From IMG/VR virus record IMGVR_UViG_3300021090_000091, positions 1 to 27,292 of that record: a stretch of DNA of 27,292 nt. One strand, 5' to 3'. Position numbers and translations under genes: made by a program. Below, in pieces: positions 128 to 27,193 of this stretch. Source of the DNA: a virus. Below the pieces are notes generated by a model that saw only the letters and a program-made list of their open reading frames with translations, did no database searches and was not told the DNA's origin. How positions within the stretch are numbered: position 1 is the stretch's first letter; each line of letters opens with the position of its first letter.

Positions 128-213
128 ATAAAGCCGCCTGATAAAGCGAGGCACAAATTCCAGATAAGTGACTTCCCAAAATCAATTGAATAGGTCAAAG
201 TTACTTTGATTTT
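128..213. repeat. Terminal inverted repeat, left
   Basis: Aligned without gaps to the reverse complement of 27108-27193, 72 of 86 positions match by hand count, and the inner 42 (172-213) are identical. It holds two GATAA-type sub-sites, CCTGATAA at 137-144 and GATAAGTGACTTCCC at 163-177. A 15-bp palindrome, TCAAAGTTACTTTGA, lies at 195-209. Paired sub-sites within each end resemble the multiple transposase-binding sites of Mu ends. No TG dinucleotide stands at the terminus. Confidence 0.85.
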
Positions 214-252
214 GATTCAACTATGCCTTCCAAAAAGCCAAAGTCAGCACTT

Positions 253-1098
253 TTAAACCGAATCTGCAAACCTGTATATTTTATAAACAAAGGTGCGTGT
301 TGTACCTGTTGTATTCGAGAGTACGAGCACTTTTGCTCCAGTGGTTTTTTCAACCATATAGGCGCTCAAGCCGGAGCCGGAATTTTGCGACAATAATACA
401 TCAGCAGCCCCGAATTTGGCATGGGCAGAATAGAAACAAGGCTCTCCATTGCTCATGCCGACGATCTCGACGGATGTTCCCGCTGCGACCGCCTGTTCAC
501 CTTCGATGATAGTATATAATTTGATCCACCGAGAAGGGATGGGGCTGAGTATATTTGTTGCGTTCGTTGCCGTGGTGGCGGTCGCGGAGTTGCCTGTGCA
601 GGAGGCCGAGCTTCCACTCACATTCCCAGCCACATTCCCTATAGTGTTGGTCGGGTTTATCAATTGAAAATTGGTGCCGTCATAACGTATTTCCACCATC
701 TTGTAGGCGGGGATATCTCCTGAAACGAGGGAGCTTGTGACCTCTTTTTTTATGCTTCTCGTTCCGAGGCCGTTGATGTTGATCGTGCAGACGCTGGTGT
801 TTGCATTTGACACGGTAAAATAGAGCGGCATGCCGGTGACGTAGCTCTGGAGGGCAGGACTGAGGGTCAGAACGTAGTTATTGGTCCCGCTTGCGGCGGC
901 GTAGGGCAGGGCTCCGTGACCGTCCGTGGCAATGCCGTCGTGATAATGGGTGTTCAATGCGTTCAGGAACGAGGCGTAGACACGGGTGCCTTTTATCCCG
1001 GTGTTGGGATCGCCGTCAATGAATGTTGTTTTTGCGGACCACGCGATAGTGGCCGCGACGAGTAAAAAGATGATAACTGCTGCTGTTTTCCTGAACAT
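253..1098 (-). CDS. Tail fibre protein with an N-terminal signal peptide
   Basis: 281 aa, last gene of the tail operon and closest to the left end, as expected for a Mu-type fibre gene. The start has a strong ribosome site (GGGAGG). Residues 1-22 (MFRKTAAVIIFLLVAATIAW and SA) form a textbook Sec signal: basic n-region, hydrophobic core, small residues before K23. The body is fibre-like, with YDGTNFQLINP near 139-149 and a low-complexity stretch of N, S, T, A and G around 154-182. Fibre proteins are normally assembled in the cytoplasm, so an export signal is odd. No fibre-assembly chaperone follows. Fibre assignment is fairly secure; receptor and localisation are unknown. Confidence 0.75.
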   Translation of the reverse strand: MFRKTAAVIIFLLVAATIAWSAKTTFIDGDPNTGIKGTRVYASFLNALNTHYHDGIATDGHGALPYAAASGTNNYVLTLSPALQSYVTGMPLYFTVSNANTSVCTININGLGTRSIKKEVTSSLVSGDIPAYKMVEIRYDGTNFQLINPTNTIGNVAGNVSGSSASCTGNSATATTATNATNILSPIPSRWIKLYTIIEGEQAVAAGTSVEIVGMSNGEPCFYSAHAKFGAADVLLSQNSGSGLSAYMVEKTTGAKVLVLSNTTGTTRTFVYKIYRFADSV

Positions 1099-1146
1099 GG
1101 TCTGCCTCCCTTTAATTTCAGCTAAGAGCCAAGAGCTGAGAGCTTA

Positions 1147-1689
1147 TTAATCATAGACAAAATAGACGTGTGTGTGCGCGGGCTTCATCTCGGTTATGAC
1201 CGATTCGAGCACCGCCGTGGCCTCCGTGCCCCAGTCCTGGAGCAGGTCGCCGGCGGCCGAGTCTCCCGCGGTGAAATACGTGAGCGTTTGCGGAGAATTG
1301 GTGATGTGCATGCGCCAGCAGTGGATCGTCGCCGGTGTGCCGCCATAGGCCCCGGAGTTCGGCGGCATCTCCTCTATATCAGCGATGAAACCGAGCTTTG
1401 CCGCCAGGTCGATGTAATACTGGATGTCGAGCCTGCCGCGCAGGCGGCGCTGCTGCGCCACGATCATGCGGCGGATCTCGGGCGTAGTCCCCGCCACGGG
1501 GATGATGCCGTATCGGGCCTCCCATGCCTCCAGTGTTTCATTGGCCATGTCGGGGTGCATCTCTCCCAGCAGGTCCTGGACACGGGCCTGAACGGCGTCG
1601 AGATACGCGCCATCGATGGCTGTGTCCGCGTTAAAGACGCCGCCCAGATCGAGGGGAAAAAGCATTTTCAGAACATCGGCATGAAGCAT
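1147..1689 (-). CDS. Baseplate/tail protein, Mu gp48-like (DUF2313)
   Basis: 180 aa, starting MLHADVLKMLFPLDLGG with AGAGGG upstream of the ATG. The pattern matches the Mu gp48/DUF2313 family: an LLGEMHPDMANETLEAWEAR-type segment, a short loop, then IRRMIVAQQRRLRG and a beta-rich C-terminus ending HVYFVYD. In Mu-like phages this protein lies between the J-like baseplate wedge and the fibre and connects the two, and that is its position here. The family is recognised from pattern and gene order, not from a search. Confidence 0.8.
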   Translation of the reverse strand: MLHADVLKMLFPLDLGGVFNADTAIDGAYLDAVQARVQDLLGEMHPDMANETLEAWEARYGIIPVAGTTPEIRRMIVAQQRRLRGRLDIQYYIDLAAKLGFIADIEEMPPNSGAYGGTPATIHCWRMHITNSPQTLTYFTAGDSAAGDLLQDWGTEATAVLESVITEMKPAHTHVYFVYD

Positions 1690-1698
1690 AAGCCCTCT

Positions 1699-2886
1699 TT
1701 AGGTTACCGTTATTGTTCCCGGCCTGAGCATGACGTATGCTCCCGGCACTACATTGGCGTTCGGTGTTGTAAGCGCTTTATATTCAGCACCATTCTGAAT
1801 GGCCAAGGAAGTCAACTGATCCAAATACAATACCTGCCCCGGCTCCAGAAGAGAAAGATATGAAGCAATGTCGAGCGCGATCTTTGCCCTGTCGACGTTT
1901 TGTCCGCTGACCGCCATAACTACGTCCTGGGTCTGGATCGTGGGAGCGAGGCAGGCCACGCGTGAGGCGCCTACACAGCGATTAGTCTCAATGTTTTTTT
2001 TGACCTGCGCAATCAAACTTCGAATGACGTATCTCTGCCCGATCGCGGTGAAGATGTCGTCCTGCACGGACAGACTGCCGGCGCCGTCCACCACGGCCAC
2101 AATGGTCTCGGTATTCAGGTCGAGGTTGTCCACCACGTCGCCCTTTACCACGGGCCGTCCGGCGTCATTGAACGCGCCCGCGGCGTCCACCAGCTTGTTC
2201 GGGGTGACGGTCGTCGCGGTGCCGGTGTGGTGATAAACGATATACGGCTCATTGGCATACTTGAAGATGTCGTCGGCCAGGGTGAGCTGTATCCCGCTGT
2301 TCACGACGGTCACCGTGGTGCTCCTGCGCTTGACCGGGTTTTCGACGATATCGCCTACAGCCACGGCCAGGGCGGTGGAGAAGTCGGCGGCGGTATCGTT
2401 TAACTTGTTTGCAGCGGCGCTGGTGGTGTTCCCGATGCGCGATGAATTGCTCGGCAGCTCCGAACCTGTTGTGCCGGCATCGGCGACGACCACGAGGTCC
2501 AGGGTGCCATCGCCCTGAGCGAGAGGAAAGGGAAAAGCATCTGCCACATTGTCAATTTCTTTGGCCCACTTGGCGTAATCATACTGGTTGCCGCCTGCGG
2601 GCGGACGGCGCTCGTCCTCCTGAAGCCGCGCGAGGAACTCCGCGTCGTCCTCTCCGGCCACAGGCACCAGCCCGCGATCGCCGCCGTGGTGCAGGAGGTT
2701 GTCATGGTCCGAGGTGTCGGGAAAGATCTGCTTCGCGGCCCGGTCGATCTCGTAATAGAGGCCGAAGAGGGCAGATGCCAGACAGCCGGAGCGGAACAGC
2801 GTTTCCTGGTCCACGGTGCCGTTCTGGTTGCGGTAATCGGTCAGGATCTTATCGTACAGCTCGTTGAAGGACTTTTGAAAAGGCAT
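1699..2886 (-). CDS. Baseplate wedge protein, gpJ/Mu gp47-like, with inserted repeats
   Basis: 395 aa from the ATG at 2886, chosen because GAGGGG stands about 8 bases upstream. The N-terminus (FNELYDKILTDYRNQNG) and the region EDDAEFLARLQEDERRPPAGGNQYDYAKWA are typical of Baseplate_J proteins, as is the C-terminal part with VAPT-like loops. Between about residues 150 and 295 there are two related beta-rich units. One contains NKLNDTAADF and VGDIVEN; the other contains NKLVDAAGAF and KGDVVDN. They look like a tandemly duplicated insert that would project from the wedge. The gene follows the gp46-like gene and precedes the gp48-like gene, the standard Mu order. Confidence 0.85.
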   Translation of the reverse strand: MPFQKSFNELYDKILTDYRNQNGTVDQETLFRSGCLASALFGLYYEIDRAAKQIFPDTSDHDNLLHHGGDRGLVPVAGEDDAEFLARLQEDERRPPAGGNQYDYAKWAKEIDNVADAFPFPLAQGDGTLDLVVVADAGTTGSELPSNSSRIGNTTSAAANKLNDTAADFSTALAVAVGDIVENPVKRRSTTVTVVNSGIQLTLADDIFKYANEPYIVYHHTGTATTVTPNKLVDAAGAFNDAGRPVVKGDVVDNLDLNTETIVAVVDGAGSLSVQDDIFTAIGQRYVIRSLIAQVKKNIETNRCVGASRVACLAPTIQTQDVVMAVSGQNVDRAKIALDIASYLSLLEPGQVLYLDQLTSLAIQNGAEYKALTTPNANVVPGAYVMLRPGTITVT

Positions 2887-2887
2887 T

Positions 2888-2930
2888 TTAACCACCCCTC
2901 ACCTAACCTCTCCCACTGAGGGGAGAGGGA
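2888..2930. repeat. Intergenic hairpin repeat (CACCCCTCAC family)
   Basis: CCTCTCCC at 907-914 pairs with GGGAGAGG at 921-928 (window positions 2907-2928). The repeat starts with ACCCCTCACC. A related copy lies upstream of the tail chaperone at 8791-8842. Read on the minus strand, the leading part GTGAGGGGTG supplies the ribosome binding site of the next gene in both places. Confidence 0.65.
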
Positions 2931-2936
2931 TTTTAT

Positions 2937-3290
2937 TTATACAACCGGGACGAACGTCTCAAACGTGACCGGCTGGTCGTTCGCCTGGGTGGCGTCCACG
3001 CGGATATTCACCTGGCCGCGCGTGTCGTCGTCCCGCTCCGCAATGGCCGTGATCGCCTTTGCCTTGCCCGCGTCGATGAGCCATTTTGCCGCCTGTTTGC
3101 AGCGTACCGGCACCAGGGCGAGGTTCTGGTCCGTGTCCTTTTTCGGGAGTGCCGGCATGCCGAATTTCGGATTTACGAACCACGCGCCTTGCTCCACCAG
3201 GATGCTGAGGGCCACGTCCGTGGCGATGGTGGCGTCCTGCTCGTGTGTCAGCTCGGGGTGGCCCTGGTTCATGATGATCTTGTAGCCCAT
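2937..3290 (-). CDS. Baseplate protein, Mu gp46-like (gpW/gp25 role)
   Basis: 117 aa, with the start preceded by GAGGT. The central text DVALSILVEQGAWFVNPKFGMPAL and the following VRCKQAAKWLIDAGKAKAI match the phage GP46 family, the small baseplate protein that links sheath and wedges in Mu-like tails. Its place between the spike (gp45-like) and the J-like gene agrees. The C-terminus ends in a short beta segment, VTFETFVPVV. Confidence 0.8.
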   Translation of the reverse strand: MGYKIIMNQGHPELTHEQDATIATDVALSILVEQGAWFVNPKFGMPALPKKDTDQNLALVPVRCKQAAKWLIDAGKAKAITAIAERDDDTRGQVNIRVDATQANDQPVTFETFVPVV

Positions 3291-3299
3291 TATTACCTC

Positions 3300-3372
3300 A
3301 GTTTGTAGCTTAGAGCTGAGAGTTAAGAGCTTGTGGCTTAACCCTTAGCTATCGGCTCTTAGCTATCAGCTT
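3300..3372. repeat. Low-complexity AGCT/CTTAG repeats in a tail-operon gap
   Basis: Repeated words such as TAGCTTAGAG, GAGAGTTAAGAGC and CTTAGCTATC fill the gap between the gp45-like and gp46-like genes. The same word family occurs at 1120-1145 and 9255-9408. No reading frame or promoter is evident. Confidence 0.6.
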
Positions 3373-3374
3373 TC

Positions 3375-3863
3375 TTATGATGCCTTCGTCTTTGCCGTGG
3401 CGACGTTCGCGATCACCAGCGGCGCATCTATTGTATGCCCGCCAAAGGTGAGGGCATTAATTGCTGTAACAATTCTTTCATCAGCCAGTTTATATTGAGC
3501 GCCGTTTCCCATCTCCACGGCCGGGGAATTCACGATCACCTTGGTCTGGCCGAGGATCTCGATCGTCTTCCCGCGCTTCATGTGGATTTTGTCGCCCTCG
3601 TCGGTATAGAGCGCCACTTCGCCGCGCGCGAGCTCGATGCGGTACCGGCGATCGTCCGAGCCGATCAGATAAAAGACGTTCCCGCGGCCTATGATGAGGC
3701 CCTCGGCGCCGTCCAGGAGCGAGGAAGCAAAACCATAGTGCTGCTGCATCTCCCTGTCCTTGAACTCTTCGTTCGGCAGTCCGGTCGCGGATATCGTCCG
3801 GATAGCTCCCTCCGTGAGGGCGTTGATAACAACGCGGCGGATGATTGTTTTAATAAGGCCCAT
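3375..3863 (-). CDS. Baseplate spike/assembly protein, gpV/Mu gp45-like
   Basis: 162 aa from the ATG at 3863 (MGLIKTIIRRVV), with GAGGGG about 5 bases upstream. The Mu Gp45 pattern is visible: an N-terminal region, then DREMQQHYGFASSLLDGAEG, the OB-fold strands around VFYLIGSDDRRYRIELARGEVALYTDEGDKIHM, and a beta-helical stretch IEILGQTKVIVNSPAVEMG that forms the needle. This trimeric spike sits under the D-like hub and pierces the target envelope. No C-terminal metal-binding HxH tip is seen, which some spikes have. Confidence 0.8.
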   Translation of the reverse strand: MGLIKTIIRRVVINALTEGAIRTISATGLPNEEFKDREMQQHYGFASSLLDGAEGLIIGRGNVFYLIGSDDRRYRIELARGEVALYTDEGDKIHMKRGKTIEILGQTKVIVNSPAVEMGNGAQYKLADERIVTAINALTFGGHTIDAPLVIANVATAKTKAS

Positions 3864-3880
3864 GTTACCCCTCAAAATCA

Positions 3881-3972
3881 GTTTTGAGTTGTGAGTTCTT
3901 AGTTCTTAGTTAAAAACGCCCTGCTCTTGCGAAAGCGCGGGTGCAGACTCAAAACTAAAAACTAAAAACTGC
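3881..3972. repeat. Low-complexity repeats in a tail-operon gap
   Basis: The words GAGTTCTTAGTTCTTAGTT and AAAACTAAAAACTAAAAACT frame a short unique core. The heptamer spacing is the same as in the CTAAGAA array at 8131-8176. Confidence 0.6.
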
Positions 3973-3987
3973 CTCTCAAAACTGCCG

Positions 3988-5061
3988 TTACGCGGTCATC
4001 CCGGGCAGGCCGAGCCTGAGCTCGGTAGTGGTGCCCTGGTCCTTTGACTTCTTGAATGTGCGGCCATAGATGAGGTATGAACCATCGAGCTCGTAGTTAT
4101 TTTTCTCATCCTTTACGTTTGCCAGCTCGTTGATGCTCCAGTTCTTTCCGTTCTGGCTGTGGCCGGAGACGGTATAGGTGGCCAGAAAACCCTCGTGGCG
4201 CATCAGTTCAAGCGCCATTCTGGCCTGCTGGTCCGGCTGGTCTCCTCCGTATTCGTCCTTCAGGAAGAACGGCTTGTAGAAAGGGAAATCTGGATCGACG
4301 ACCGTTGCCTCAATGTTTATTTGAGTCGCCGAAAACACGTTTGTGCCCTGCTTCTGCCCCACAACCGTCACCTGGCTGAAGCGCTTTGTGATGTCGTTCA
4401 GTAAATTCGAGGTTTTGATGTTGTTCCCCTTGCCGTCCATGCGGCGCGTAAGAGTAAAGGCCGGATCGCCTTTTTCCCTGGGCTTTCCAAACACAAAGAG
4501 CGGCTGATATGCCGTTGCTCCGGATCCGTGCGGCAGGCAATAGAAGATCATGCCTTTGTTCTTCGCAAACTGGCTCAGGACCTCGAAGACCGTCATGCCG
4601 GGCTCTATCTGCGACAGCGCGTTCTGCGTGTCGAAGATCCCCACCTTCGAGCCCTTGCCCTTGATGCGGCCCTTCGTGTCTTCCTCATACAGGATGGCGG
4701 CGCGCTGGATCCGCGGCAGCCTTCCGATCAGCAGTTCCGCGAGTTGTTTGAGTGTCTGGTCCTGCACGGTGATAAAATCCTGCGCGTGGGCGTCCACGAT
4801 GACGCCCATGTAATCCCGGCCGGTGATCGTGAGCTTGCTGCCGTTTTTGTCATCGACCGGGTTCGGTTTTTCGATGATCCCTGTGTGCTCCAGGGTGTCG
4901 TTGACGTAGAGTTCGCAATCCTGACCTTTTACAATGGAGGTCTCCGGATTGGCAAGTACCAGCTCGAAGGCGGCCGCGCCGGCGAACATGTCCGCGTCGA
5001 TCGAGTAGGACTCGAACCGCTCGATGCGTTTGCCGTTGACCAATAAATAAACAGTATCCAT
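3988..5061 (-). CDS. Baseplate hub protein, phage late control D/Mu gp44-like
   Basis: 357 aa from ATG 5061 (MDTVYLLVNGKRIERFESY); AAGGA lies nine bases upstream, and a GTG two codons earlier is the alternative. The family signature is present: an N-terminal beta domain, LTITGRDYMGVIVDAHAQDF around residue 80, a middle domain with GMTVFEVLSQFAKNKGMIFY, and the C-terminal YTVSGHSQNGKNWSINELAN with a final GRTFKKSKDQGTTTELRLG. It corresponds to the gp27-like trimeric hub on which the spike sits. It lies between the gp43-like and spike genes, as in Mu. Confidence 0.85.
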   Translation of the reverse strand: MDTVYLLVNGKRIERFESYSIDADMFAGAAAFELVLANPETSIVKGQDCELYVNDTLEHTGIIEKPNPVDDKNGSKLTITGRDYMGVIVDAHAQDFITVQDQTLKQLAELLIGRLPRIQRAAILYEEDTKGRIKGKGSKVGIFDTQNALSQIEPGMTVFEVLSQFAKNKGMIFYCLPHGSGATAYQPLFVFGKPREKGDPAFTLTRRMDGKGNNIKTSNLLNDITKRFSQVTVVGQKQGTNVFSATQINIEATVVDPDFPFYKPFFLKDEYGGDQPDQQARMALELMRHEGFLATYTVSGHSQNGKNWSINELANVKDEKNNYELDGSYLIYGRTFKKSKDQGTTTELRLGLPGMTA

Positions 5062-5157
5062 TTTCACAGTTCCTTAAAACGTGGGAGGTGGCAAGTCCGC
5101 TTCGCTTGGAAGAAGGATGTAACGTCCTACATCCCACGTCCTACGTCCTCACAGGCC

Positions 5158-6504
5158 TCATGCCGCGTAAAGCTTGATCGTTCCACTTACAAAGCTCGGG
5201 TTCTTGATCTGCGGATTGATCGCCAGTATCCTGTCGGCCGCGTTGTAGGGCAGGCCGTATTTCAGACAGATCAGGTGCAAGGGCATGGTGTTTTCGATGT
5301 CCACGCTGTAGATCCGCGCTATCTCGAGCTTGATCCTGCGCGCGTGCGCGACCAGCCCGTCCACGGCGGTCTTGATGCTCTGCATGGTCCGGGCGTTGTC
5401 CACGCCGGTCTGGGCGCTTGCCATTACCTCGGCCAGCACGGCCTCGATGTCCGTCACGTTCATGATGGGGTCAACGGCGGCGGCGCCAAGGAAGTTGCCG
5501 AGGACATCAAAGCTGGGTTGATTTTCTATCCGCTTCCCGGCCTGGCGGTTCAACTGGTCCGCCTTGAATGCGTATGCCGCCTCGAGCGCCAGGCGCTGCG
5601 CTGCGGCAAGCTGTACGTGCTTTGCCATGATCGCGGCCGCGGCGTTCTCGGCGATCGCCCTGACCGAGCCTGCCGGGGCGGTGGTGCGGAAGTCCAGAAA
5701 CGACTGCTCCAACTGCCCGAGGGCGTTCTTCATGCTGCTCGCAAAACGCGCGGGGGCGGTGCGCAGGTCTGAAAACGCCTCAGCGTAGCGCTCCACGGTC
5801 TCTGCGATCGCGCCGATGACGCGGCCGGGGAGATTGGTCGTATAGTCGATCGTGGCAATGATACTGTTCGCGGGCTGGGTGACCGCCGACAGTGTCCCTT
5901 CAAGGGTGCGGACACCCGCATCCACCTGCGCCACGAAGGCGCGGGCCTTGCCGGTGAGGTCCTGAAATTGAGAGAGGATGTCCTGACCCGCGACCAGCGC
6001 CCGGTCCATGAGAGCGCTGCCCTCGGTGCCGAGTACTTCGGTGACATCGGCTACGCACTGCGTCATGGCTTCCGTTTGCCCCAGTTGGAACGCTTCCTCG
6101 CACACGCCGCCGATGGACGGCTCCGCGATCTGCTCCGGCTCGATGATGCTCTCAACGAACAATATATCGATCTCCGCCAGGCGCAGGCGGTCGTCGAACC
6201 TGCGGTGCATGCGCTCGACATATCCGCGCAGGACTCCGTGTTCCGGATGGATGAACTCGATCGGACTTGACTGTTTGGAAATAGCGTCGTACAGGTCCTG
6301 GTGCAGGTCAAAATCATCGTTGTAAAAAAAACAGGTGAAATGGTGCGGGGTGCCGCGCTGGCCCATGTTCTCGACGAGCGCGCCGTCCCGGTTCGGGTAT
6401 TCGTGCTTCACGAGCGCCCACTCGACGGTGTCGGACACCCCGCGATCGGAGATCATGACCTCGATGCCTGCAAGCGTTGCCGGGTATTTGTCTTTATTTG
6501 ACAT
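5158..6504 (-). CDS. Mu gp43-like protein (DNA-circulation N-terminal family)
   Basis: 448 aa. The ATG overlaps the tape-measure stop codon (TGATG), so translation is coupled. The N-terminal 115 residues (ATLAGIEVMISDRG, NMGQRGTPHHFTCFFYNDDF, IEFIHPEHGVLRGYVERMHR) match the DNA_circ_N family found in Mu gp43. The middle is long, helical and alanine-rich. The C-terminal 45 residues (MPLHLICLKYGLPYNAADRI and a late NPQI) resemble a LysM-like unit. In contractile tails this protein is usually placed at the inner baseplate near the tape-measure end. The family name reflects an old proposal; a DNA role in a headless particle is doubtful. Confidence 0.75.
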   Translation of the reverse strand: MSNKDKYPATLAGIEVMISDRGVSDTVEWALVKHEYPNRDGALVENMGQRGTPHHFTCFFYNDDFDLHQDLYDAISKQSSPIEFIHPEHGVLRGYVERMHRRFDDRLRLAEIDILFVESIIEPEQIAEPSIGGVCEEAFQLGQTEAMTQCVADVTEVLGTEGSALMDRALVAGQDILSQFQDLTGKARAFVAQVDAGVRTLEGTLSAVTQPANSIIATIDYTTNLPGRVIGAIAETVERYAEAFSDLRTAPARFASSMKNALGQLEQSFLDFRTTAPAGSVRAIAENAAAAIMAKHVQLAAAQRLALEAAYAFKADQLNRQAGKRIENQPSFDVLGNFLGAAAVDPIMNVTDIEAVLAEVMASAQTGVDNARTMQSIKTAVDGLVAHARRIKLEIARIYSVDIENTMPLHLICLKYGLPYNAADRILAINPQIKNPSFVSGTIKLYAA

Positions 6505-8093
6505 CAGTGGTTTATCCCAAACTCGCCGCGATTGATGCGGCCGACGGTGATCCTTGTATTCAAATCAGCGGTATCGGTTTTTATTTGGTCCGGCGTGACG
6601 TACACGGTCAGATTGACGGTGTTCTGCATGGGCTGGCCGCTCATGACCTGCTGCTGCCTGGCGTAGTCATAGGGGTTTTCCGTGCGCCATTTCCTGAGCC
6701 CCGCGGCCTCGTTCTTTCCCGCCTGCTGCATGATGATCGCGGCCAGGGCCTCACTGGAGAGCACCGTGCCGGCGCCGCCGCCTAATGCCGCCATCCCCTG
6801 CACAAACCTTGTCGCGCCCGCCAGGGATATCACACCGTATATTTTTTGGAAAACGTCCAGCACCTTGCCCGCCGCAACGGAAATGCCCATGAGGCCGATC
6901 ACGGACAAGATGCCTTTGACGACGACCGGGTGGGCCTGCAGAGCGTCCAGCACGTGGGACAGCCCCTTGAGCGCGGACGCCATGTGGTCCACCTTGAACT
7001 TGTCGAGCTGATTTTGAAAGAGTTTGAGCTTTGCGGCCATGCTGTCGGACTCGGACTTGAAATCCCTTGCCAGGCTGCCTGAAGAACGCCGCAGCTCTTC
7101 CTGTTTGTGCATGATATCGCCGTACTTTTGCGCGATCATCATGAGTGTCTTCGCGGCCTCGGGCCTGCCGAATATGGCCATGGAGACTTCTTCGATGCTC
7201 TTGCCGGAGCGCTGAGCTTCATCGGCGAGCTTTTTAAATTGCGGGATGAGGTCCGCGATGCTCTTAACGCCGCCGCCCTGGTTAAAGAAGTTGATGCCGC
7301 GGCCGAGGAGCTGGCTGTTGATATCTTTATTCTTGCTGACGCGCAGCAGTCCGTTGAACAGCGCCTCGATGGATCCGCTCGCCTCGCCTGCAGACCCGGT
7401 GAACTGCGTGAGCTGCGCCTGGAGCGCCATGAGCGGGGTCACATTGCCGAGGCCCTGGGTCTTCAGGAGCTGCATGGTCTTTGACATTGAGCTGATGGAT
7501 TGCAGGAACGCCTCGGGGCTCTTCCGCACGTCCTCCATCTTCATGGCCGCGTTCAACTGGTCCTGCAGCGCGGGCAGGTCCGTTGCCGCGACCTTGTATT
7601 TGTCCATCAGCTCGCCGATGGTCTCGGCGTATATCTTTACGTCGGTTTGCGACGCCACGGCGCCCTTGCCGACCTGCGGCAGGATCGCCCTGATGACGTT
7701 CATCGAGACGCCCGTCGTGTTCAAGGCCTCGGCCATGTCCGCGAACTGCCCCTTGATGAGCGGGATGCCGGACCCGGGCGAGATGAGGTCCACGATCTGT
7801 TTGCGAAACGCGGCCATATCGATCGCGGAGGCCCCGGACGTGCGGCCCACTTTGCGGAGCACCGCGTCGAACTCCAGCAGATCCTCTGTCATTTTGTATA
7901 CGCCGAAACCCGCGCCAAGCGGGCCGAGCGCGCCGAGCCTGCTCCAACCGGCGGCCATGGATGCGTTCACGCGCTTGAAGACGTTGATGGCGTTCCTGCC
8001 GTACTTGTTCACGGCGTCATGGCCGCGGGACAGCACGTTTATGAGTTTGCTGTCGCTGGCGGTCAGGTCTATTTGGGCTTCGTTCTTCGCCAT
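6504..8093 (-). CDS. Tail tape measure protein 1
   Basis: 529 aa from ATG 8093 (MAKNEAQIDLTASDSKL), chosen by ATGAGG six to ten bases upstream and by agreement with the second copy (MGKNEARIDL). The Mu-type tape-measure pattern is visible: helical N-terminal half with a RVNASMAAGW segment, long coiled coil to about residue 380, a hydrophobic segment near 390-440 (VVVKGILSVIGLMGISVAAG) and the end INRGEFGINH. The protein sets tail length and fills the tube. By the usual rule of about 0.15 nm per residue, the tail would be near 80 nm. It is stop/start coupled to the next gene. Confidence 0.85.
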   Translation of the reverse strand: MAKNEAQIDLTASDSKLINVLSRGHDAVNKYGRNAINVFKRVNASMAAGWSRLGALGPLGAGFGVYKMTEDLLEFDAVLRKVGRTSGASAIDMAAFRKQIVDLISPGSGIPLIKGQFADMAEALNTTGVSMNVIRAILPQVGKGAVASQTDVKIYAETIGELMDKYKVAATDLPALQDQLNAAMKMEDVRKSPEAFLQSISSMSKTMQLLKTQGLGNVTPLMALQAQLTQFTGSAGEASGSIEALFNGLLRVSKNKDINSQLLGRGINFFNQGGGVKSIADLIPQFKKLADEAQRSGKSIEEVSMAIFGRPEAAKTLMMIAQKYGDIMHKQEELRRSSGSLARDFKSESDSMAAKLKLFQNQLDKFKVDHMASALKGLSHVLDALQAHPVVVKGILSVIGLMGISVAAGKVLDVFQKIYGVISLAGATRFVQGMAALGGGAGTVLSSEALAAIIMQQAGKNEAAGLRKWRTENPYDYARQQQVMSGQPMQNTVNLTVYVTPDQIKTDTADLNTRITVGRINRGEFGINH

Positions 8094-8104
8094 TACAAAC
8101 CTCA

Positions 8105-8176
8105 TTCAAAATTCAATATTCAAAATTCAAAACTAAGAACTAAGAACTAAGAACTAAAAACTAAGAACTAAGAACT
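8105..8176. repeat. CTAAGAA heptamer array
   Basis: The words ATTCAAAATTCAATATTCAA are followed by about six near-perfect heptamers CTAAGAA (8132-8175). On the minus strand the stop of the frameshifted chaperone (8168-8170) lies inside this array, so the array supplies the last codons and stop. Such arrays are prone to copy-number change. Confidence 0.7.
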
Positions 8177-8784
8177 GCCTTTACTCTTTTTCCAAACCCT
8201 CGTCACTTTGGGCTTGAAGCCCGGCGTGTCAGGCCCCTTGTACGGCTTGGGGTATGCGTCGTGCATCATGCAGATGTAGAGCCACTGCCCGCTGGTGAGG
8301 TCGCAGGCAGGCTTGCCAAATAGGTGATAAGCCCTCTCAGCGTTGTTGAATTTAAAAAGTTCGAGATCGAGGGAGTTTTTTTTACCTCGGTGAAGAGTTT
8401 GTCATACTCTTCGTCGGTCATCTTTTTCAGCGCGGGGTTGCTCTCGTTGTCCAGGGCGTTCCACTCCTCGATCAGGATGGCCTTGGCCGAGGCAAAGGCG
8501 GGGAGCTGCGCCAGCTCATCCGTCTGCTTGAACATGCGCTTGCCGGTCTCCGGGTCCACGATCGCACGGGCGAGGATGGCCGTGTTCTGCGACGCCTGGT
8601 ACGCGTCCATGGTCGCGGCCGAGAACTCGATCTGCGCGGCCTTGAAGCGGCGCTCGACCTCGAATTGGGCCTCTTCTATCTCCGCCTCGGTCAGGATCCG
8701 GAGCGTGATGCTGTCCTCCCGTCCCGGCCAGGGGATGGTGCGGGTGTTGCGCGTGCCGGCTTTTAATTGTTCGATGAGACTCAT
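8168..8784 (-). CDS. Tail assembly chaperone 1, -1 frameshift (GT-type) product
   Basis: Eight adenines on the coding strand (8383-8376) give A AAA AAA in the reading frame. Slipping back one base after codon 8379-8377 continues from 8377 to a stop at 8168-8170, giving 205 aa instead of 172. The extension includes LELFKFNNAERAYHLFGKPA and QWLYI. The other cassette's extension is its clear homologue (LEHFKFRNAKKAFAFFGKPA, QWLYI), which shows selection on both frames. In lambda-type systems the shifted form links the chaperone to tail subunits. Mu itself is reported to use a different shift; the -1 direction here is read directly from the two frames. Confidence 0.8.
8266..8784 (-). CDS. Tail assembly chaperone 1, unshifted product
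   Basis: 172 aa from ATG 8784 (MSLIEQLKAGTRNTRTI). GAGGGGTG lies six bases upstream, and the second copy starts the same way (MSLIEKLKAGTRN). The product corresponds to the G-type chaperone of long-tailed phages, which coats the tape measure during assembly and is absent from the finished tail. It is encoded directly upstream of the tape measure. The last 37 codons overlap a second open frame that encodes the shifted form, so both products come from one gene. It shares ERRFKA, LDA/MDAY and EYDKLF-like segments with the second copy at 24752-25267. Confidence 0.8.
   Translation of the reverse strand: MSLIEQLKAGTRNTRTIPWPGREDSITLRILTEAEIEEAQFEVERRFKAAQIEFSAATMDAYQASQNTAILARAIVDPETGKRMFKQTDELAQLPAFASAKAILIEEWNALDNESNPALKKMTDEEYDKLFTEVKKTPSISNFLNSTTLRGLITYLASLPATSPAGSGSTSA
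8376..8383 (-). other. Slippery sequence for -1 frameshift, cassette 1
   Basis: On the coding strand the codons are GTA AAA AAA ACT. The heptamer A AAA AAA is in the correct phase for simultaneous -1 slippage. Confidence 0.75.
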
Positions 8785-8790
8785 ATAGAT

Positions 8791-9236: not shown

Positions 9237-9254
9237 GGTGGCCTCCTTGTGTTT

Positions 9255-18615: not shown

Positions 18616-18651
18616 GAAAATTATGACTCAAGACCGCAAATAACGTGATAA

Positions 18652-18666
18652 TCAAAGTTACTTTGA
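18652..18666. promoter_or_regulatory. Internal copy of the end palindrome TCAAAGTTACTTTGA
   Basis: The same 15-bp palindrome lies in the left (195-209) and right (27112-27126) inverted repeats. Here GCAAATA and TATTTGC words flank it as an outer inverted repeat, and ATAG adjoins it as in the ends. It could be an operator, or an internal transposase-binding site like the Mu enhancer. Confidence 0.5.
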
Positions 18667-18862
18667 CTATTTGCCTTAACTGAAGCTAAAACGCGAAATC
18701 GAATTTAAGGCGTTTTCCCTGGTGTCCGGGTATCAAGAGAGCCGCACTTTTTGAAATCGCCTGAAACCGCGTTTATAAACGTGTTTTTTGGGGCAATGCT
18801 GAGGTCTTTTCCAATGTCACTGATGTCCCTAAAATCAACAATCTCCCATTCTGATCGTCTTT

Positions 18863-19369: not shown

Positions 19370-19939
19370 TCAATTTTGATTTGGCTGTGATACCGCAACG
19401 GCGACCGCCTCACCACTATTCTTCTTTTTGGAAGATTTTCTTTTCCTTAGAGGTGCGGACATGGTGTCTCTATAAATCTGCCACTCGGTGCCGCCGCCGC
19501 TAAACAGCGCGTCTCGGAACCTCTGGTTGAACAAGCCTTGCTCATAGAAACTGAGGCCGTGGGAAGGTTTTCCGAGAATTACATGGTCCAGCACGCTTAT
19601 GCCTAAAATTCTTCCTGCATCAGACAGCCTCTTCGTTGTGTTAACATCTTCCAATGAAGGGGTTGGATCTCCTGATGGGTGGTTGTGACAAAGAATAATA
19701 GCGGCAACTCCCTTCATGGTGGCAAATCGAAACACCTCACGTGGATCGGCAACGGATTGATGTGATGATCCGAGAGAGACGAGTTCGATATATTGTATAA
19801 TATTTTTACGATTCAACCCTATTGCCCAGAGGTGTTCTCGATTGCGATCTGTTTCATGTTCGGAATTTAGAATAGCACTCATGATCTCTATAACTCTGCA
19901 ACCGCTGCCGATTTGTTCTTCTTGTTCGCTGATAATCAT
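19370..19939 (-). CDS. RadC-like JAMM/MPN+ protein
   Basis: 189 aa, start preceded by GAGGAGG ten bases away. The JAMM metal motif is intact: H85 and H87 in CHNHPSGDPTPSLEDVN, with D98. The surrounding DPREVFRFATMKGVAAIILC and ILGISVLDHVILG are typical of RadC. The helix-hairpin-helix N-terminus of chromosomal RadC is missing, as in many mobile-element copies. The C-terminal 40 residues are basic (PLRKRKSSKKKNSG), perhaps for DNA binding. RadC proteins are widespread in phages and integrative elements; the biochemical role is still debated. It follows the MuB-like ATPase in the same operon. Confidence 0.8.
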   Translation of the reverse strand: MIISEQEEQIGSGCRVIEIMSAILNSEHETDRNREHLWAIGLNRKNIIQYIELVSLGSSHQSVADPREVFRFATMKGVAAIILCHNHPSGDPTPSLEDVNTTKRLSDAGRILGISVLDHVILGKPSHGLSFYEQGLFNQRFRDALFSGGGTEWQIYRDTMSAPLRKRKSSKKKNSGEAVAVAVSQPNQN

Positions 19940-19994: not shown

Positions 19995-21248
19995 TCAGAT
20001 TGTGTTCACCACTTCGTCAGTAACCTTCTCAAAACCGTGCAATGCCGCGAAGTTCATGGCGCGGATAATATAATTGTTGACAGTGAGGGGATAGGCTACA
20101 GAAACATCGCGGCCGGATTCGTTGTTGGTGAGCCTTTTCCCGAGCGCGTCGATGGCGCCATCGGTGATGATGCTCCGGGCGTCGATGTTCACGCGCTTGA
20201 ACTTGTGGACAATGTATTCCTTGACGCTGCCGTTCAGGCCCTGGATCTCGGCGACCTGGATCCGCCGGATAACCTCGCGCATATCGTAATGATCGCCTTC
20301 ATTTAGGAGCGCACCAAGCTCAGGCTGCCCCACGAGTATTATCCCCATGACTTTCTTGGCACCGTCCTCGATCTCGTGGAAGCGCTTGAAGAGCTTGAGC
20401 ACGCGCGGACATGCCGCGAGGTCCTGGGCCTCCTCAATGAGCATTACCATTTTAATGCCGGACTTCGATCGAGCGACCAGAAGATCCTCTACCTGGCGGG
20501 ATTTCTGTTCAAGCTTACCCTTCAATTTAGCATCATGGCCGGCGAGATCGTAAATAATGGCGTCGCAAATGCTTGCGGCGGTGATGCGGGTCTTATCAAT
20601 GATCCGGGGAAAAATAATTCGGCAGTTCTCATCCTGCCGGAGCTCATGCACGAAGAGCCGACGCATCATGGTCTTTCCGCTGCCCACCTCTCCGATGACA
20701 GCGAGAAAACCGCTATGTCTTGCCGCTTCAAGCATGGCCATTTGAATGTAACGATGGTCCCCAGAAAGATAGATGTCCTTTACCGGATCGATATCATCTC
20801 CAAAGGGGCTCCGGAATATTTTGAATTGTTTCATTGCCTTTGCCGTTAGCATCTCCGCCTCCAGTGTAAGCTCAACCGCTTCGGGATCTCCCAGGGTGAT
20901 CGGCTTTCTCTTCATTCCTCTCGAAACACGCCGTCTGTGGTTTACGTCCTTTCTCCACTTGAGCCCCTTGCCGAGCGGCGCCCAAATGTCCTGTGTCTTG
21001 TAGCCGCGCTCCTGGAGCCAGACACCCGCCAGCTCACTCTTTTCGATGAGCTTCTCCACGGCCTTTCGGAATGTTGGAAACTCGGTTGGCATATAGCCCC
21101 AGCGGTTTAGGACCAGGTTGATCGTTGGCCTGCTGCATCCGACCTTGCGCGCGATCGCCGCCTGGACCATGCCGCAATCTAAAATAAGCTGCTTTAAAAC
21201 GATGGTCCGGAACTTCATTTGATATGAGCTGCTGCTATGTGTCACCAC
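19995..21248 (-). CDS. MuB/TniB-like AAA+ ATPase (target selection)
   Basis: 417 aa from GTG 21248 (AAGGG four bases upstream); GTG 21284 and ATG 21218 are alternatives. The N-terminus carries a helix-turn-helix (GMVQAAIARKVGCSRPTINL), as in Mu B. The ATPase core has Walker A GEVGSGKT near residues 186-193 and Walker B MLIEEAQD near 269-276, then a sensor segment MGIILVGQPELGALL and an arginine-rich MREVIRRIQVAEIQGL. Mu B is 312 aa; the extra length is mostly the N-terminal linker with basic patches. It should bind DNA, choose targets and activate the transposase. In Mu, B follows A; here it precedes A by 3.8 kb. Confidence 0.85.
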   Translation of the reverse strand: MVTHSSSSYQMKFRTIVLKQLILDCGMVQAAIARKVGCSRPTINLVLNRWGYMPTEFPTFRKAVEKLIEKSELAGVWLQERGYKTQDIWAPLGKGLKWRKDVNHRRRVSRGMKRKPITLGDPEAVELTLEAEMLTAKAMKQFKIFRSPFGDDIDPVKDIYLSGDHRYIQMAMLEAARHSGFLAVIGEVGSGKTMMRRLFVHELRQDENCRIIFPRIIDKTRITAASICDAIIYDLAGHDAKLKGKLEQKSRQVEDLLVARSKSGIKMVMLIEEAQDLAACPRVLKLFKRFHEIEDGAKKVMGIILVGQPELGALLNEGDHYDMREVIRRIQVAEIQGLNGSVKEYIVHKFKRVNIDARSIITDGAIDALGKRLTNNESGRDVSVAYPLTVNNYIIRAMNFAALHGFEKVTDEVVNTI

Positions 21249-21317
21249 GTTATCCCTTTTCGCTGGAGCTGCATTCGATCGCACTTTGTACTATTGACAA
21301 AGACGTTCTGCCCGCAC

Positions 21318-22464: not shown

Positions 22465-22472
22465 TGATATAA
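22465..22472. repeat. IS target duplication, left copy (TGATATAA)
   Basis: TGATATAA recurs at 23840-23847. An 8-bp duplication is what ISL3-family elements make. Confidence 0.85.
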
Positions 22473-23839
22473 GGATCAAGTGCAAACTGAGTGGGTAAAA
22501 ATGAGGAGTAAAACTCACATCACCCGCTCTGGTTAAGTGTTTTATTCTTGTCTTTGTTTGGGAAAACGTGCTATGAATCGTGCATGAGAAAGAAGACACT
22601 CAGCGATTCATACCGGTTCCCTGGTTTTACTCCACAGCGCACCGTTGTTGGTATCTTCGGTGATTCCTACGCTCGAGTGATACGGCTCACTCGGCGGGGG
22701 AAAAAACAGTTTGTGGCGTCTGTAGCACGGTTCATCGGACCTTCTATGATCATAAGATCAAGCGGGTCCGTGATCTTTCCTCTGGCGATGCCCGCATCTA
22801 TCTGGAACTACCGGTACGACGAGTCCAGTGCCGGAGGTGCGGTAAGGTGAAACAAGAGAAACTGTCGTTTCTGGCAGACAGTCCGTTCTATACTAAGCGC
22901 TTTGCCTTCTATATTGGCAAGCGGTGCAGTACTTCAACGATCAAGGATGTTGCCAAAGAGTTTCACCTTGACCGAAGGGCCGTCAAAGAACTCGAAGTGC
23001 AGTACATGCGAGAGAAGCTTCGTCGGGCCGGAAATCCCGGGCCGAAAGTTATCGGTATCGACGAAATCTCAATCCGCAAAGGCCATACGTACCGGATCGT
23101 GGTCAGCGACCTGGAGAGGCGTCGGCCCATCTGGTTCGGAGGAGAGGACCGCTCGGAAGAAAGCCTAAACTGCTTCTTTGACGAGTTGGGGCCAAAAAAA
23201 GCTAGTAAAATACGACTTGCGGTCATGGACATGTGGAAGCCTTTTGAAAAGTCCACACGTCAGAAAGCTCCGCAGGCTGCCATTCTCTACGATAAGTTCC
23301 ATATCATAAGGCACCTGAACGAGGCCTTAGACAAAATTAGAAAGAGCGAATATGCCAGACTAACCGGCAAAGATCGTAAATTCATCAAGGGTCAGAAATA
23401 TACGCTCCTCTCGCATCGAGAAAACCTTACTACGGATGGGAGAAGATCGTTAAAGACGCTTTTAACTGCTAACAAGCGTTTAAACACTGCTTACATCCTC
23501 AAGGAGGAGTTTGGGCAGCTCTGGGACTATCAGTCAGAAGCCTGGGCCAAAAAGTTCTTCGACAACTGGAAGGCTTCGTTAAAATGGCAACGTCTCGACC
23601 CCTATGAAAAGTTCGCCAAGATGGTCGAACGCCATTGGGACGGTATCGCCGCCTTCTGCAAACCCGAGAACAAAGTCGCACTCGGATTTGTCGAGGGCTT
23701 AAACAATAAGATCAGGGTCATTCAACGTCGTTCCTATGGTCTTCGAGATGAAGAATATCTTCGACTCAAGATACTGACCTCTATGCTACCTGAAATTTGA
23801 AAACCGGCTCAAAGCACCCACTCAGTTTGCACTTGAGCC
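22473..23839 (+). mobile_element. ISL3-family insertion sequence, 1367 bp
   Basis: The ends are inverted repeats starting GGATCAAGTGCAAACTGAGT on the left and GGCTCAAGTGCAAACTGAGT on the right (read inwards); 23 of 24 positions match. 8-bp target duplications flank it. It encodes one ISL3-type transposase, which carries a frame change. Size, ends with GG, and duplication length all fit ISL3. Confidence 0.9.
22584..23800 (+). pseudogene. ISL3-family transposase with a frame change
   Basis: The first frame from ATG 22584 reads MRKKTLSDSYRFPGF and RLTRRGKK up to the run GGGGGAAAAAAC (22696-22707). The second frame then reads TVCGVCSTVHRTFYDHKIKR with VRRVQCRRCGK (zinc-ribbon cysteines) and the DDE domain to 23800. 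Catalytic residues are visible: D in VIGIDEISIRKG, D in LAVMDMWKPF, E in GFVEGLNNKIRV. The composite is about 405 aa, the normal family length. The shift lies in a homopolymer, so an inactivating indel or sequencing error is likelier than programmed shifting, which is not usual in ISL3. Confidence 0.8.
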
Positions 23840-23847
23840 TGATATAA
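23840..23847. repeat. IS target duplication, right copy (TGATATAA)
   Basis: Matches 22465-22472 exactly; joins the two halves of the exported-protein gene in frame. Confidence 0.85.
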
Positions 23848-24698: not shown

Positions 24699-24751
24699 TA
24701 GGCTGTGGATTTCCGCTTCAATCCTATTTTTATACCCTTTTGGAGGTAACC

Positions 24752-25267
24752 ATGTCTCTTATCGAAAAGCTCAAAGCCGGCACGCGCAACGTGAAAGCAA
24801 TCAAATTTCCAGGGACCGAGGATGACATTGTTATGCAGATCCTCTCGAACGCCGACATTCAGGATGCCGTGTTCGCGGCCGAGCGGCGCTTTAAGGGCGA
24901 GGAAATGTCGGTCGCTTCATCCACTCTCGACGCCTACGAGGACGAGCGCACCACGCAGATACTTTTCCGGGCGCTGCGCGATCCTGACAACAGCAAAAAG
25001 CCTTTTTCCTCATCCGCCGACGAACTGCGTAAGCTTCTGACCAGGGAGCAGAAGGACTATCTGATAGCCGAATATGCAGCCTTTGAGAATGAGTGCTCCC
25101 CCAGACTGGAGAATCTCTCGGATGATAGGTTTAACGAGATATGGGAGGAGATAAAAAAAAAGCCGACAGCCTTGAACACTTTAAGTTCCGGAATGCAAAG
25201 AAGGCTTTTGCTTTTTTTGGTAAGCCAGCAATCGACCTCACCGACGCACAGTGGCTCTACATCCTGA
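24752..25267 (+). CDS. Tail assembly chaperone 2, unshifted product
   Basis: 171 aa from ATG 24752, with TGGAGG five bases upstream. It is a clear paralogue of the chaperone at 8266-8784: MSLIEKLKAGTRNVKAIKFP against MSLIEQLKAGTRNTRTIPWP, AERRFKGEE against VERRFKAAQ, and similar acidic C-terminal halves. The DNA shares 18 identical bases (AAAGCCGGCACGCGCAAC). Overall protein identity is low, so this is a diverged copy taken from a related element, not a recent duplication. It stands directly upstream of its own tape measure. Confidence 0.8.
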   Translation: MSLIEKLKAGTRNVKAIKFPGTEDDIVMQILSNADIQDAVFAAERRFKGEEMSVASSTLDAYEDERTTQILFRALRDPDNSKKPFSSSADELRKLLTREQKDYLIAEYAAFENECSPRLENLSDDRFNEIWEEIKKKPTALNTLSSGMQRRLLLFLVSQQSTSPTHSGSTS

Positions 25268-25359
25268 ACATGTCCATGCCCGAATCGGAAAAAGAGGATT
25301 CCGCAACAAACCAAGAACGTAAGGCAAAAATTATTAAGATATCCAGACCAGAGAGATAG
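24752..25359 (+). CDS. Tail assembly chaperone 2, -1 frameshift product
   Basis: The codons ATA AAA AAA AAG contain A AAA AAG (25156-25162) in phase, the most efficient -1 slippery heptamer known in bacteria. Re-reading from 25162 gives ADSLEHFKFRNAKKAFAFFG, KPAIDLTDAQWLYILNMS and a stop at 25359, for 202 aa in total. The extension matches that of cassette 1, including FKF-N and GKPA-DLT--QWLYI. A frameshift retained in both diverged copies argues that cassette 2 has been functional. Confidence 0.8.
25156..25162 (+). other. Slippery heptamer A AAA AAG, cassette 2
   Basis: Nine adenines (25153-25161) followed by G; the heptamer is in frame with the chaperone start. A possible stimulatory stem downstream was not resolved by eye. 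Confidence 0.75.
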
Positions 25360-25377
25360 TACCGCCTTTCTAAACCC

Positions 25378-26910
25378 ATGGGAAAAAACGAAGCCAGAAT
25401 AGATTTAGTAGCCGACAGCTCAAAGCTCAAATCGGAGCTGGGAAAATCCGATCGCGACGTGCGCAACTTCGGATCGTCGGTGAAGAACGTCTTCTCCAAT
25501 ATCAAGAGCAAGATTGATGAGGCTACGGATTCCTTTGGCACATTTGGAAAGGTCGCGGTTGCATACGCAGCAAGTCGGACGCTTAAGAAGCTCTTCAGCC
25601 TGGAAGAGTTCATGAAGGTTGATGATGCCCTACTCATGATGCAGGCAAACCTCAAGATGAGTGCCAAGGAGCTCGATGGATTCAAAAGCAAAATGGTGGC
25701 TATGGCAGGAAGCCACGGCGAGGATATGGGTGCACTCTTTAGCGCGTCTGCAAAACTCTCCAAGTCATATAAGCCGGATGACATCCTGAAAATCATGGAC
25801 GCTTCTTCCATGGCGTCAAACGCTATGGAGCAGGACCTCACGTCGGTGGAGGAACGCATCGTCCAGATCATGAAGATGTACCGCAAAACGCCGGACGAAG
25901 CTAAGAAGATAGCCGAGGCGCTCGTTGCATCGAACGCGGATATGGGAACGCTCGACACCCTCCTGCAACGCGGCATCTTAAAGGGCGGAGCAGGAAAGGA
26001 CTATCAAGAAATCCTCGCGCTTGCGTCTGCGATCAAAAAGGCTGGTGCGGATTCGCCTCGTGTTGTGATGGGAATAGAGAGCATCGTCAATACTATCGAG
26101 GAGAAAGCGCCTATCCTTAAGAAAGCCGGCATTGATATCTTCAAGATTGATCCGAAGACCGGGAAGAAGGTAAAAAAAGATTTAATCGAGACACTTCAGG
26201 AACTCGAACCAGTTCTCGCTAAGCGGAAAAAGATGCTGGGCGATGAAGAATACAATAAAAGGCTCGATGAAACATTCGGACAGGGCACGCATGAAGCGCT
26301 TCCTTTTCTCTTTTCTCAAAAGGACTCAATAAAAAAAGCCTTAGAGGATCAGGGCAATGCCGCGCAGATTGCAGCGCAGCGCGCAACCAAGGCTGATGAA
26401 AAGTGGAGCAAACAACTCAATAAGGTCAAGGGTCACCTGGATGCGATTAAAACAGATTCGAGCGAGATCTACGACCGCGCCAAGAAGCCTGTGAAATTTC
26501 TGGCCGACTCGCCGAATCTGACCAAAGGGCTTGGAATCGGCGCGGCGGGGCTCTCGCTCGCAGCCCTGGGCGCCCTGGCCTTTGGCAAAGGCCGTCAGTT
26601 ATTGAAGTACCTCACCCCCGGACCATGGCTTACAAATAGTTTCAACGCCGCTGCGCCTGTCGCGGCGGCCGCAGTTATAGCGGAGCCTTATTGGGAAAAC
26701 TATCAGAAAAAGGTTTTTGAAAAATTCAGCGATGTGCAGACAACTGAATCGAGAGCACAGGGCAACAGGGTATTTGGGGAAAGGGGAATCAATCCTATTA
26801 ATAACATTACTCTCTCCGTGTACATCGACAACGAAGGCCGCGTGCAGACTAATTCCAATGATATTAACACCCATATCAAAATAAATCGCGGGGAATTCAA
26901 TTCCCGATGA
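25378..26910 (+). CDS. Tail tape measure protein 2
   Basis: 510 aa, starting MGKNEARIDLVADSSKLKSE like tape measure 1. No ribosome site is close to the ATG, so translation probably depends on ribosomes ending the frameshifted chaperone 18 bases upstream. The body is helical and lysine-rich, with a hydrophobic segment near residues 380-435 (LGIGAAGLSLAALGALAFG; AAPVAAAAVIAEPYWE). The C-terminus ends INRGEFNSR, against INRGEFGINH in copy 1, preceded by similar strands (ITLSVYIDNEGRV; VNLTVYVTPDQIK). The middle is unlike copy 1. It would specify a tail about 4 percent shorter with a different lumen content. No other tail gene follows. Confidence 0.8.
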   Translation: MGKNEARIDLVADSSKLKSELGKSDRDVRNFGSSVKNVFSNIKSKIDEATDSFGTFGKVAVAYAASRTLKKLFSLEEFMKVDDALLMMQANLKMSAKELDGFKSKMVAMAGSHGEDMGALFSASAKLSKSYKPDDILKIMDASSMASNAMEQDLTSVEERIVQIMKMYRKTPDEAKKIAEALVASNADMGTLDTLLQRGILKGGAGKDYQEILALASAIKKAGADSPRVVMGIESIVNTIEEKAPILKKAGIDIFKIDPKTGKKVKKDLIETLQELEPVLAKRKKMLGDEEYNKRLDETFGQGTHEALPFLFSQKDSIKKALEDQGNAAQIAAQRATKADEKWSKQLNKVKGHLDAIKTDSSEIYDRAKKPVKFLADSPNLTKGLGIGAAGLSLAALGALAFGKGRQLLKYLTPGPWLTNSFNAAAPVAAAAVIAEPYWENYQKKVFEKFSDVQTTESRAQGNRVFGERGINPINNITLSVYIDNEGRVQTNSNDINTHIKINRGEFNSR

Positions 26911-27107
26911 GCATGTGAGGGCGGATAGATACGCGCGTGGAAGCGCCCTGAGCGCCCAAACTTCTCCCCGAGGGTCAGGGCACGGGCCATTAAAAGTGAC
27001 GATTGATTTCACCCACATCAAGCCTTTCAGTATAGCCTATCACAGCATCTCTAAAAACCGGATTCAAAAGAACGCAGAAAAGCTCCTTTTTGTAAAATTC
27101 AAACCCT
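26911..27107. other. Spacer between tape measure 2 and the right end
   Basis: The tape-measure stop overlaps a start codon (ATGAGCATG, then TGA), like the overlap with the gp43-like gene in the main operon, but the frame stops after three codons. This suggests a cassette cut just after its third gene began. The rest shows no convincing gene, promoter or terminator; a 64-codon frame here has no ribosome site and no recognisable pattern. Confidence 0.5.
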
Positions 27108-27193
27108 AAAATCAAAGTAACTTTGACCTATTCAATTGATTTTGGGAAGGCAGTTATCGGATTTTTGGGCCTTGAGTTATCGGGCCGCTATAC
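27108..27193. repeat. Terminal inverted repeat, right
   Basis: Reverse complement of the left end; the inner 42 bases (27108-27149) are identical. Read inwards it carries CCGATAACTCAAGG and CCGATAACTGCCTTCCC sub-sites and the palindrome TCAAAGTAACTTTGA at 27112-27126. Confidence 0.85.

Follow-up and report, generated by a model that had tools for sequence, protein, structure and literature searches.

The window analysed here, the whole 27,292-base linear IMG/VR virus record IMGVR_UViG_3300021090_000091, contains a Mu-like element of 27,068 bp (127-27194) in which transposition genes and a contractile tail operon lie between two transposon ends. The element is headless, mobile and Mu-like, and it is most likely a mosaic derivative rather than a complete transposable tailocin.

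Transposon ends, transposition genes and tail operon

The element is bounded by a left, tail-side end carrying the end motif (L; 127-256, plus strand) and by a right end (R; 27064-27194, minus strand), which together form 85-nt inverted repeats (129-213 and 27108-27192) with a 42-nt perfect core. Alignment of the ends sets the termini at 127 (TATAAAG) and 27194 (CTATACA), and these are flanked by CTTTCT (121-126 and 27195-27200), a target duplication of 6 bp. An earlier reading of this DNA (the original prediction) had described both ends as intact, which holds with the termini better placed as given here. In the closest complete relative (G002:C23), whose transposase is 60% identical, a duplication scan placed the ends at 3272 and 40277 with the 6-bp duplication CTGCCC; these positions represent the best candidate only. 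Both elements share an end geometry in which GATAAnT...TTCC begins 37 nt from the terminus. Judged from the matching geometry of the outer ends and the shared CTTTCT, L and R of the window element appear to have moved as a pair. An internal, operator-like copy of the end palindrome, AATCAAAGTTACTTTGACT with one mismatch, is located at 18650-18668 (plus strand).

The two proteins that characterize a Mu-like transposable element, a DDE transposase and an AAA ATPase, are both encoded. The Mu/B3-type transposase (14464-16176, minus strand; PHROG transposase, 2e-60) has the invariant catalytic residues D144, D237 and E273, with 35 residues separating the second aspartate from the glutamate. The gene of the MuB-like ATPase (19995-21284, minus strand; PHROG DNA transposition protein, 2.5e-42; Pfam AAA_22) is found upstream of the transposase gene and not directly after it. 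The DD(35)E transposase and ATPase had been predicted to be intact, and these data bear this out. They are accompanied by a MuN-like protein of a kind usually encoded just before the transposase (16418-17377, minus strand; PHROG 4623, 3e-14; family model, 2e-39) and by two Mor-type activators (12537-13115 and 13037-13393, minus strand; Pfam Mor, 3e-12 and 3e-8, respectively).

The tail genes, all on the minus strand, keep the order of Mu and contain no stops. The sheath (9415-10872; PHROG tail sheath, 7e-95), whose structure model matches the phage Mu sheath with a TM of 0.80, is followed by the tail tube (8874-9236; PHROG tail tube, 5.5e-5; family model, 1e-30), a tail assembly chaperone (8266-8793; PHROG tail assembly chaperone, 0.003; 44% identity to the L041 protein adjoining a Mu-type tail) and a tape measure protein of 533 residues (6504-8105; NCBIfam tape_meas_TP901, 2.5e-23; PHROG TMP). 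Next come gpN, the DNA circularisation protein (gp43; 5158-6504; Pfam DNA_circ_N, 7.5e-12), the baseplate hub gpP (gp44; 3988-5067; Pfam GpP-like, 5e-12), the baseplate spike gp45 (3375-3875; Pfam Phage_Mu_Gp45, 1e-6), the baseplate proteins gp46 (2937-3290; Pfam GP46, 8e-4; family model, 2e-27), J-like gp47 (1699-2895; Pfam Baseplate_J, 8.5e-20) and gp48 (1147-1689; Pfam Phage_Mu_Gp48, 2e-19), and finally a tail fibre-like protein (253-1098; PHROG tail protein, 2e-9; family model, 4e-29). Short tandem AACTAAGAACT / AGTCGATAGCTTAGAG repeats occur between tail genes (1118-1142, 3298-3364, 3880-3970, 8110-8176 and 9241-9343), which is unusual in a tightly packed phage operon.

Missing functions were sought with family models built from relatives in all six-frame open reading frames of at least 25 residues of the window, with the tail families serving as positive controls, all of which were recovered. 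No match was obtained for terminase, portal, capsid, protease, head morphogenesis or head-tail proteins, for gp35-gp38, Gam or GemA, or for a tail-fibre chaperone, and the idea of hidden head or terminator genes was rejected on the outcome of these models. Likewise, no SLT or GH19 lysozyme model matched, and no lysis gene was among the Pfam and PHROG matches of the annotated reading frames. The genes that make a complete Mu-like phage, namely those for terminase, portal, capsid, head-tail joining and lysis, are missing, as had been predicted. The coherent ends, the target duplication, the intact transposition genes and the lack of packaging and head genes also uphold the earlier view of a mobile Mu-type element and not a phage. 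Every Mu tail gene from sheath to fibre is indeed present in order; the tail was wrongly called complete, however, because the terminator gp37 is missing, and so are gp38 and the tail-fibre chaperone. gp37 is the Mu tail terminator; according to a recent structural study of Mu, no siphophage, myophage or contractile injection system is without a gene for a terminator or collar protein (PMC11915804). Of the hallmarks of an R-type tailocin, the element has intact sheath, tube, tape measure, baseplate and fibre genes and lacks both the terminator or collar protein and a lysis cassette for release.

A third transposon end at the start of the sheath gene

A third, degenerate transposon end (J; 10847-10965, plus strand), oriented as L, lies at the sheath start codon. 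It opens with TATA...CCTGATAA, continues with CCGATAAGTGACTTCC 34 nt after the start and then has an inexact version of the palindrome AATCAAAGTT...TTGATT (palindrome copy at 10941). J shows the same three motifs as the outer ends, the first two at the identical 34-nt spacing. When up to three mismatches were allowed, the end 16-mer was found at L, R and J alone. In register, 37 of 51 positions of J agree with L or R (33 with L, 31 with R), compared with 32 at the next-best place in the window and with at most 33 in 40 simulated windows. A plain local alignment gives a weaker similarity, one within the range of shuffled sequences, and the assignment of J rests for this reason on its fixed geometry. 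The end geometry used to call J is confirmed independently by the candidate ends of G002. An extra internal transposon end at a module boundary, as found at 10847, is characteristic of a composite element.

Comparison with relatives revealed that the boundary of J corresponds to codon 28 of the long sheath reading frame, which is where the relatives start. The junction swaps out just the first sheath codons relative to them, and the first nine residues of the protein (MTYYQVPLY) are encoded within J. At the junction the GC content drops from about 57% to 46%. The GC content at third codon positions (GC3) is 0.71-0.85 for the tail genes except the fibre gene (0.59), and 0.45-0.49 for the genes just right of the junction. 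The 443-base gap before the sheath had been thought to hold a decayed antirepressor fragment; we rejected this candidate, as a PHROG search with readings of both strands of the gap gave no match, and the gap holds J instead.

Accessory genes, likely host and relatives

A second tail assembly chaperone (24740-25267, plus strand; 43% identical to the first, 4e-49) and a second tape measure protein of 510 residues (25378-26910, plus strand) were overlooked in the original prediction, as was an ISL3-family insertion sequence (about 22467-23845, plus strand; 30-nt inverted repeats; DDE_Tnp_ISL3, 9e-71). The two tape measure proteins are homologous from end to end (21%, 6e-9), with the start and the C-terminal INRGEF conserved. 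The second pair (24740-26910) is intact and lies beside the right end, behind the insertion sequence and on the strand opposite to that of the tail operon. It could be a spare for recombination or could interfere with the tail assembly of other phages; in Mu-like Pseudomonas phages, defence by the small protein Tab works via the tape measure (PMC10884400).

Between the transposase and Mor genes, a sigma-70 family factor of 216 residues is encoded (13369-14019, minus strand; Pfam Sigma70_r4, 5e-16, and r2, 3e-11), which could drive the tail operon. The other accessory genes, all on the minus strand, encode two M78/IrrE-like metallopeptidase homologues, a (11316-11903; weak PHROG metallo-protease match, 0.015; PADLOC capP, 3e-4) and b (11934-12494; Pfam Peptidase_M78, 0.0045, below the cut-off; PHROG metallo-protease, 8e-5), and a RadC-like protein (19370-19939; Pfam RadC, 5e-33). 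A 19-nt exact match connects 12067-12085 in gene b with 26908-26934, just after the second tape measure gene, with a RADRY frame in both. The notion of an M78 gene fragment beside the right end was set aside, as this match alone is too weak.

The host is likely an uncultured Nitrospirota bacterium, because relatives of the insertion sequence and the closest transposase both come from this phylum. Of 396 Nitrospirota genomes, 60 contain the former, in one case at 92% over 630 bases, and the latter (60%) is L013 of Nitrospirae bacterium WY3.bin163. The transposase was not found in 14 genomes from the order to which the closest copy of the insertion sequence belongs. Single-sequence queries of IMG/VR yielded no near relatives of the ATPase, the peptidase homologue, the second tape measure or the sheath.

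Relatives of either half generally carry heads. On long enough contigs, transposase relatives adjoin terminase or head genes (G001, G002, G003, L007, L016 and L021 (terminase)), and Nitrospirota and Desulfobacterota sheath relatives adjoin head or neck genes. G006:C36 (Desulfobacterales), a complete phage, combines the transposase type with the tail type, and its Mor and sheath genes are about 13 kb apart. Upstream sequence of at least 1.5 kb was available for 71 of the 80 sheath relatives in IMG/VR; head genes were found upstream of the sheath in 69 of these 71, gp37 in all 71 and gp38 in 66. The original prediction had named relatives with the same ends and a head module at this place as the finding that would speak against it. 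This has largely come about, in that relatives of both halves have heads and G006 unites both halves. In a further group of four contigs, represented by G468, G469 and G470 (L094, L119 and L148), Mor is directly followed by protease, gp36, gp37, gp38 and the sheath. No terminase or portal was seen in the sequence read from this group; it was nevertheless rejected as headless, as protease and gp36 are kept and a capsid-like protein was read in G468.

Two relatives are naturally headless, and in both of them gp37 lies upstream of the sheath. G466 (IMG/VR 643692026_000002; L128, G466:C1:1-20825), a Mu-like element of 29,987 bp, has a front comprising repressor, Mu transposase, ATPase, Mor, Amidase_2 and gp37 (Pfam, 1e-51) and a tail comprising sheath, tube, tape measure with a GH19 domain, gpN, gpP, gp45-48, fibre and fibre chaperone. 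Past its repressor, P2-like tail genes were recognized by reading and not by search, and a tape-measure fragment is present on the repressor side. G467 (L144, G467:C1:1-15910), of 22,082 bp, starts at Mor and contains a VanY-like enzyme, gp37, a tail and several fibre sets, and no head. The capsid gpT model had no match in either, and both contigs stop short of the element ends. G466 resembles the window element in its transposase, ATPase, Mor, Mu tail operon and headlessness. It differs in retaining the gp37 terminator, an amidase and the tail-fibre chaperone, and its transposase and tape measure are of another type. The kind of element imagined in the original prediction, Mu-like, headless and equipped with a transposase, does occur in the form of G466, which was first seen in the present analysis. 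The headless layout thus recurs, with transposase, amidase, terminator and tail; the exact end sequence of the window element has no other copy in IMG/VR. G466 and G467 make stronger candidates for a transposable tailocin than the window element does.

Two compact Mu-like elements with intact ends were found on Vibrio plasmids, L009:17189-27949 (10,761 bp) and L012:5946-17206 (11,261 bp), with the 6-bp target duplications TCATGC and ATATAA, respectively. Both have transposase, ATPase, two Mor genes, two PHROG families of unknown function and a tape measure that is separated from the end by 102 bp; L012 additionally has the capsid gene gpT and a chaperone. Neither contains terminase, portal or sheath, and both are candidate transposable phage satellites. 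Transposase, ATPase, two Mor genes, an end-adjacent tape measure, the lack of packaging genes and the 6-bp duplications are common to these and the window element. Unlike the latter, they have no sheath or baseplate, measure only 10.8 and 11.3 kb and include, in L012, a capsid gene. A shortened tape measure as a satellite trick was considered for the Vibrio elements and is unsupported, as the tape measure of the complete Vibrio phage 1.028.O matches over its full length.

The Mu-like phages Mu, Klebsiella phage ST405-OXA48phi1.1, G002 and G006 share the transposase/ATPase pair, Mor and the transposon ends with the window element. They also share the sheath-to-fibre order, a comparison that covered Mu, the Klebsiella phage and G006, and G002 shares the 6-bp duplication. 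Unlike them, the window element is devoid of terminase, portal, capsid, gp35-gp38, lysis genes, Gam and GemA, and possesses a third internal end, an ATPase gene before the transposase gene and an additional chaperone/tape-measure pair. The R-type tailocins of P. syringae that derive from Mu (PMC12090994) and BceTMilo resemble it in having a contractile tail operon and no head genes. BceTMilo, which is P2-like, retained its lysis genes and lacks only a single tail gene (PMC5411513), whereas in the window element terminator and lysis are gone and transposase and ends are retained.

Origin and fate of the headless tail

We propose that the tail half of one Mu-like myophage, together with its tail-side end (127-10846), was joined at the sheath start codon to J (10847), the end of a second, related element. 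This second element would have brought the transposase, ATPase, Mor, sigma factor and peptidase-like genes and the second chaperone/tape-measure pair, and the segment 127-27194 would afterwards, in this presumed order, have transposed as a single unit via L and R. In an equivalent history, a related element may have inserted at the sheath start of one phage, with head genes lost subsequently. Under either history, headlessness would stem from a transposition-type rearrangement, which is indicated because the third transposon end cuts off the head side exactly at the sheath start codon. As its genes and ends are intact, the element's own transposase probably still moves it inside the cell. The element should be unable to package DNA, and its tails as encoded could be neither capped nor released, which would leave no exit without help. 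We consider a mobile mosaic, formed when a Mu-like phage's tail half was fused to the end of a related element, to be the probable explanation, rather than a working tailocin.

Several observations weigh against this conclusion. All 11 tail genes are open, with 0 stops in 3,262 codons, and a stop-free tail becomes improbable (p<0.05) past about 0.011 neutral substitutions per site. J has lost 10 of the 37 positions common to L and R; if J began as an exact copy of L or R, selection must have acted on the tail since then. An in-frame start is preserved for the sheath at the fusion, and the predicted fold of this protein resembles that of the Mu sheath. Among the relatives, none has the same junction or its precursor, and the transposase GC3 of 0.74 is like that of the tail genes and unlike that of its own neighbours. 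The sheath has the longest root-to-tip branch of 83, and the tube and gp47 rank second of 79 and second of 40, respectively; gpN (21 of 58), the transposase (19 of 28) and the ATPase (11 of 28) have ordinary ranks. In 105 of the 194 columns that are conserved elsewhere, the sheath deviates, which ranks it first of 70; this divergence contrast is partly ascertainment, as the sheath comparison set was chosen by conserved motifs. The unusual divergence of sheath, tube and gp47 leaves room for repurposing, and tail genes that are intact yet evolve fast are compatible both with a recent rearrangement and with repurposing. It is unlikely, in our judgement, that the tail has been selected since head loss as a contractile tail carried by a transposon and served by two interchangeable chaperone/tape-measure pairs, be it in a transposable tailocin that obtains terminator and release from the host or another prophage, or in a tail-donating satellite. 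If it has been, the window element, G466 and G467 would form a class of transposing headless Mu-like elements.

The original prediction of a self-transposing tailocin or injection particle holds that headless contractile tails kill or inject neighbours and that the element spreads within genomes by transposition. The open tail genes are consistent with this, and so is the finding that sheath, tube and gp47 have long branches and transposase and ATPase do not, as repurposing predicts. Precedents are G466 and the Mu-derived R-tailocins of P. syringae (PMC12090994), and some extracellular contractile injection system loci have no lysis genes (PMC10598620). Against it stand a junction at the sheath start codon created by a transposon end, the missing lysis genes and the absence of gp37, which is stated to be universal in myophages and contractile injection systems (PMC11915804) and is kept in both G466 and G467; for the window copy we rate it as quite unlikely. 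A phage satellite would provide the tail itself, along with an alternative chaperone/tape measure, and would borrow head, terminase, terminator and lysis from a Mu-like helper. Two intact chaperone/tape-measure pairs and the compact Vibrio plasmid elements with their intact ends and target duplications would agree with such a lifestyle. It is made very improbable by the lack of an identified helper and of a known packaging signal, by the whole tail, which a satellite does not need, and by the single copy seen. That single copy and the composition shift at 11 kb could also arise if tail and transposase segments from two molecules had been joined during assembly. This is hardly credible, given that J is too diverged from L and R to act as a misassembly repeat and that the outer ends share a target duplication.

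If the window element is only a mosaic, it illustrates one concrete way in which a phage can give rise to a headless tail, with a related transposon end arriving at the start codon of the sheath and the tail then being moved as a unit by ends from two relatives. If the tail is under selection, the element would act as a tail weapon or a satellite and spread by transposition, as G466 also suggests. The interest of the window element lies mainly in having led to G466 and the compact Vibrio elements, and it makes the origin of tailocins and their movement between genomic sites testable.

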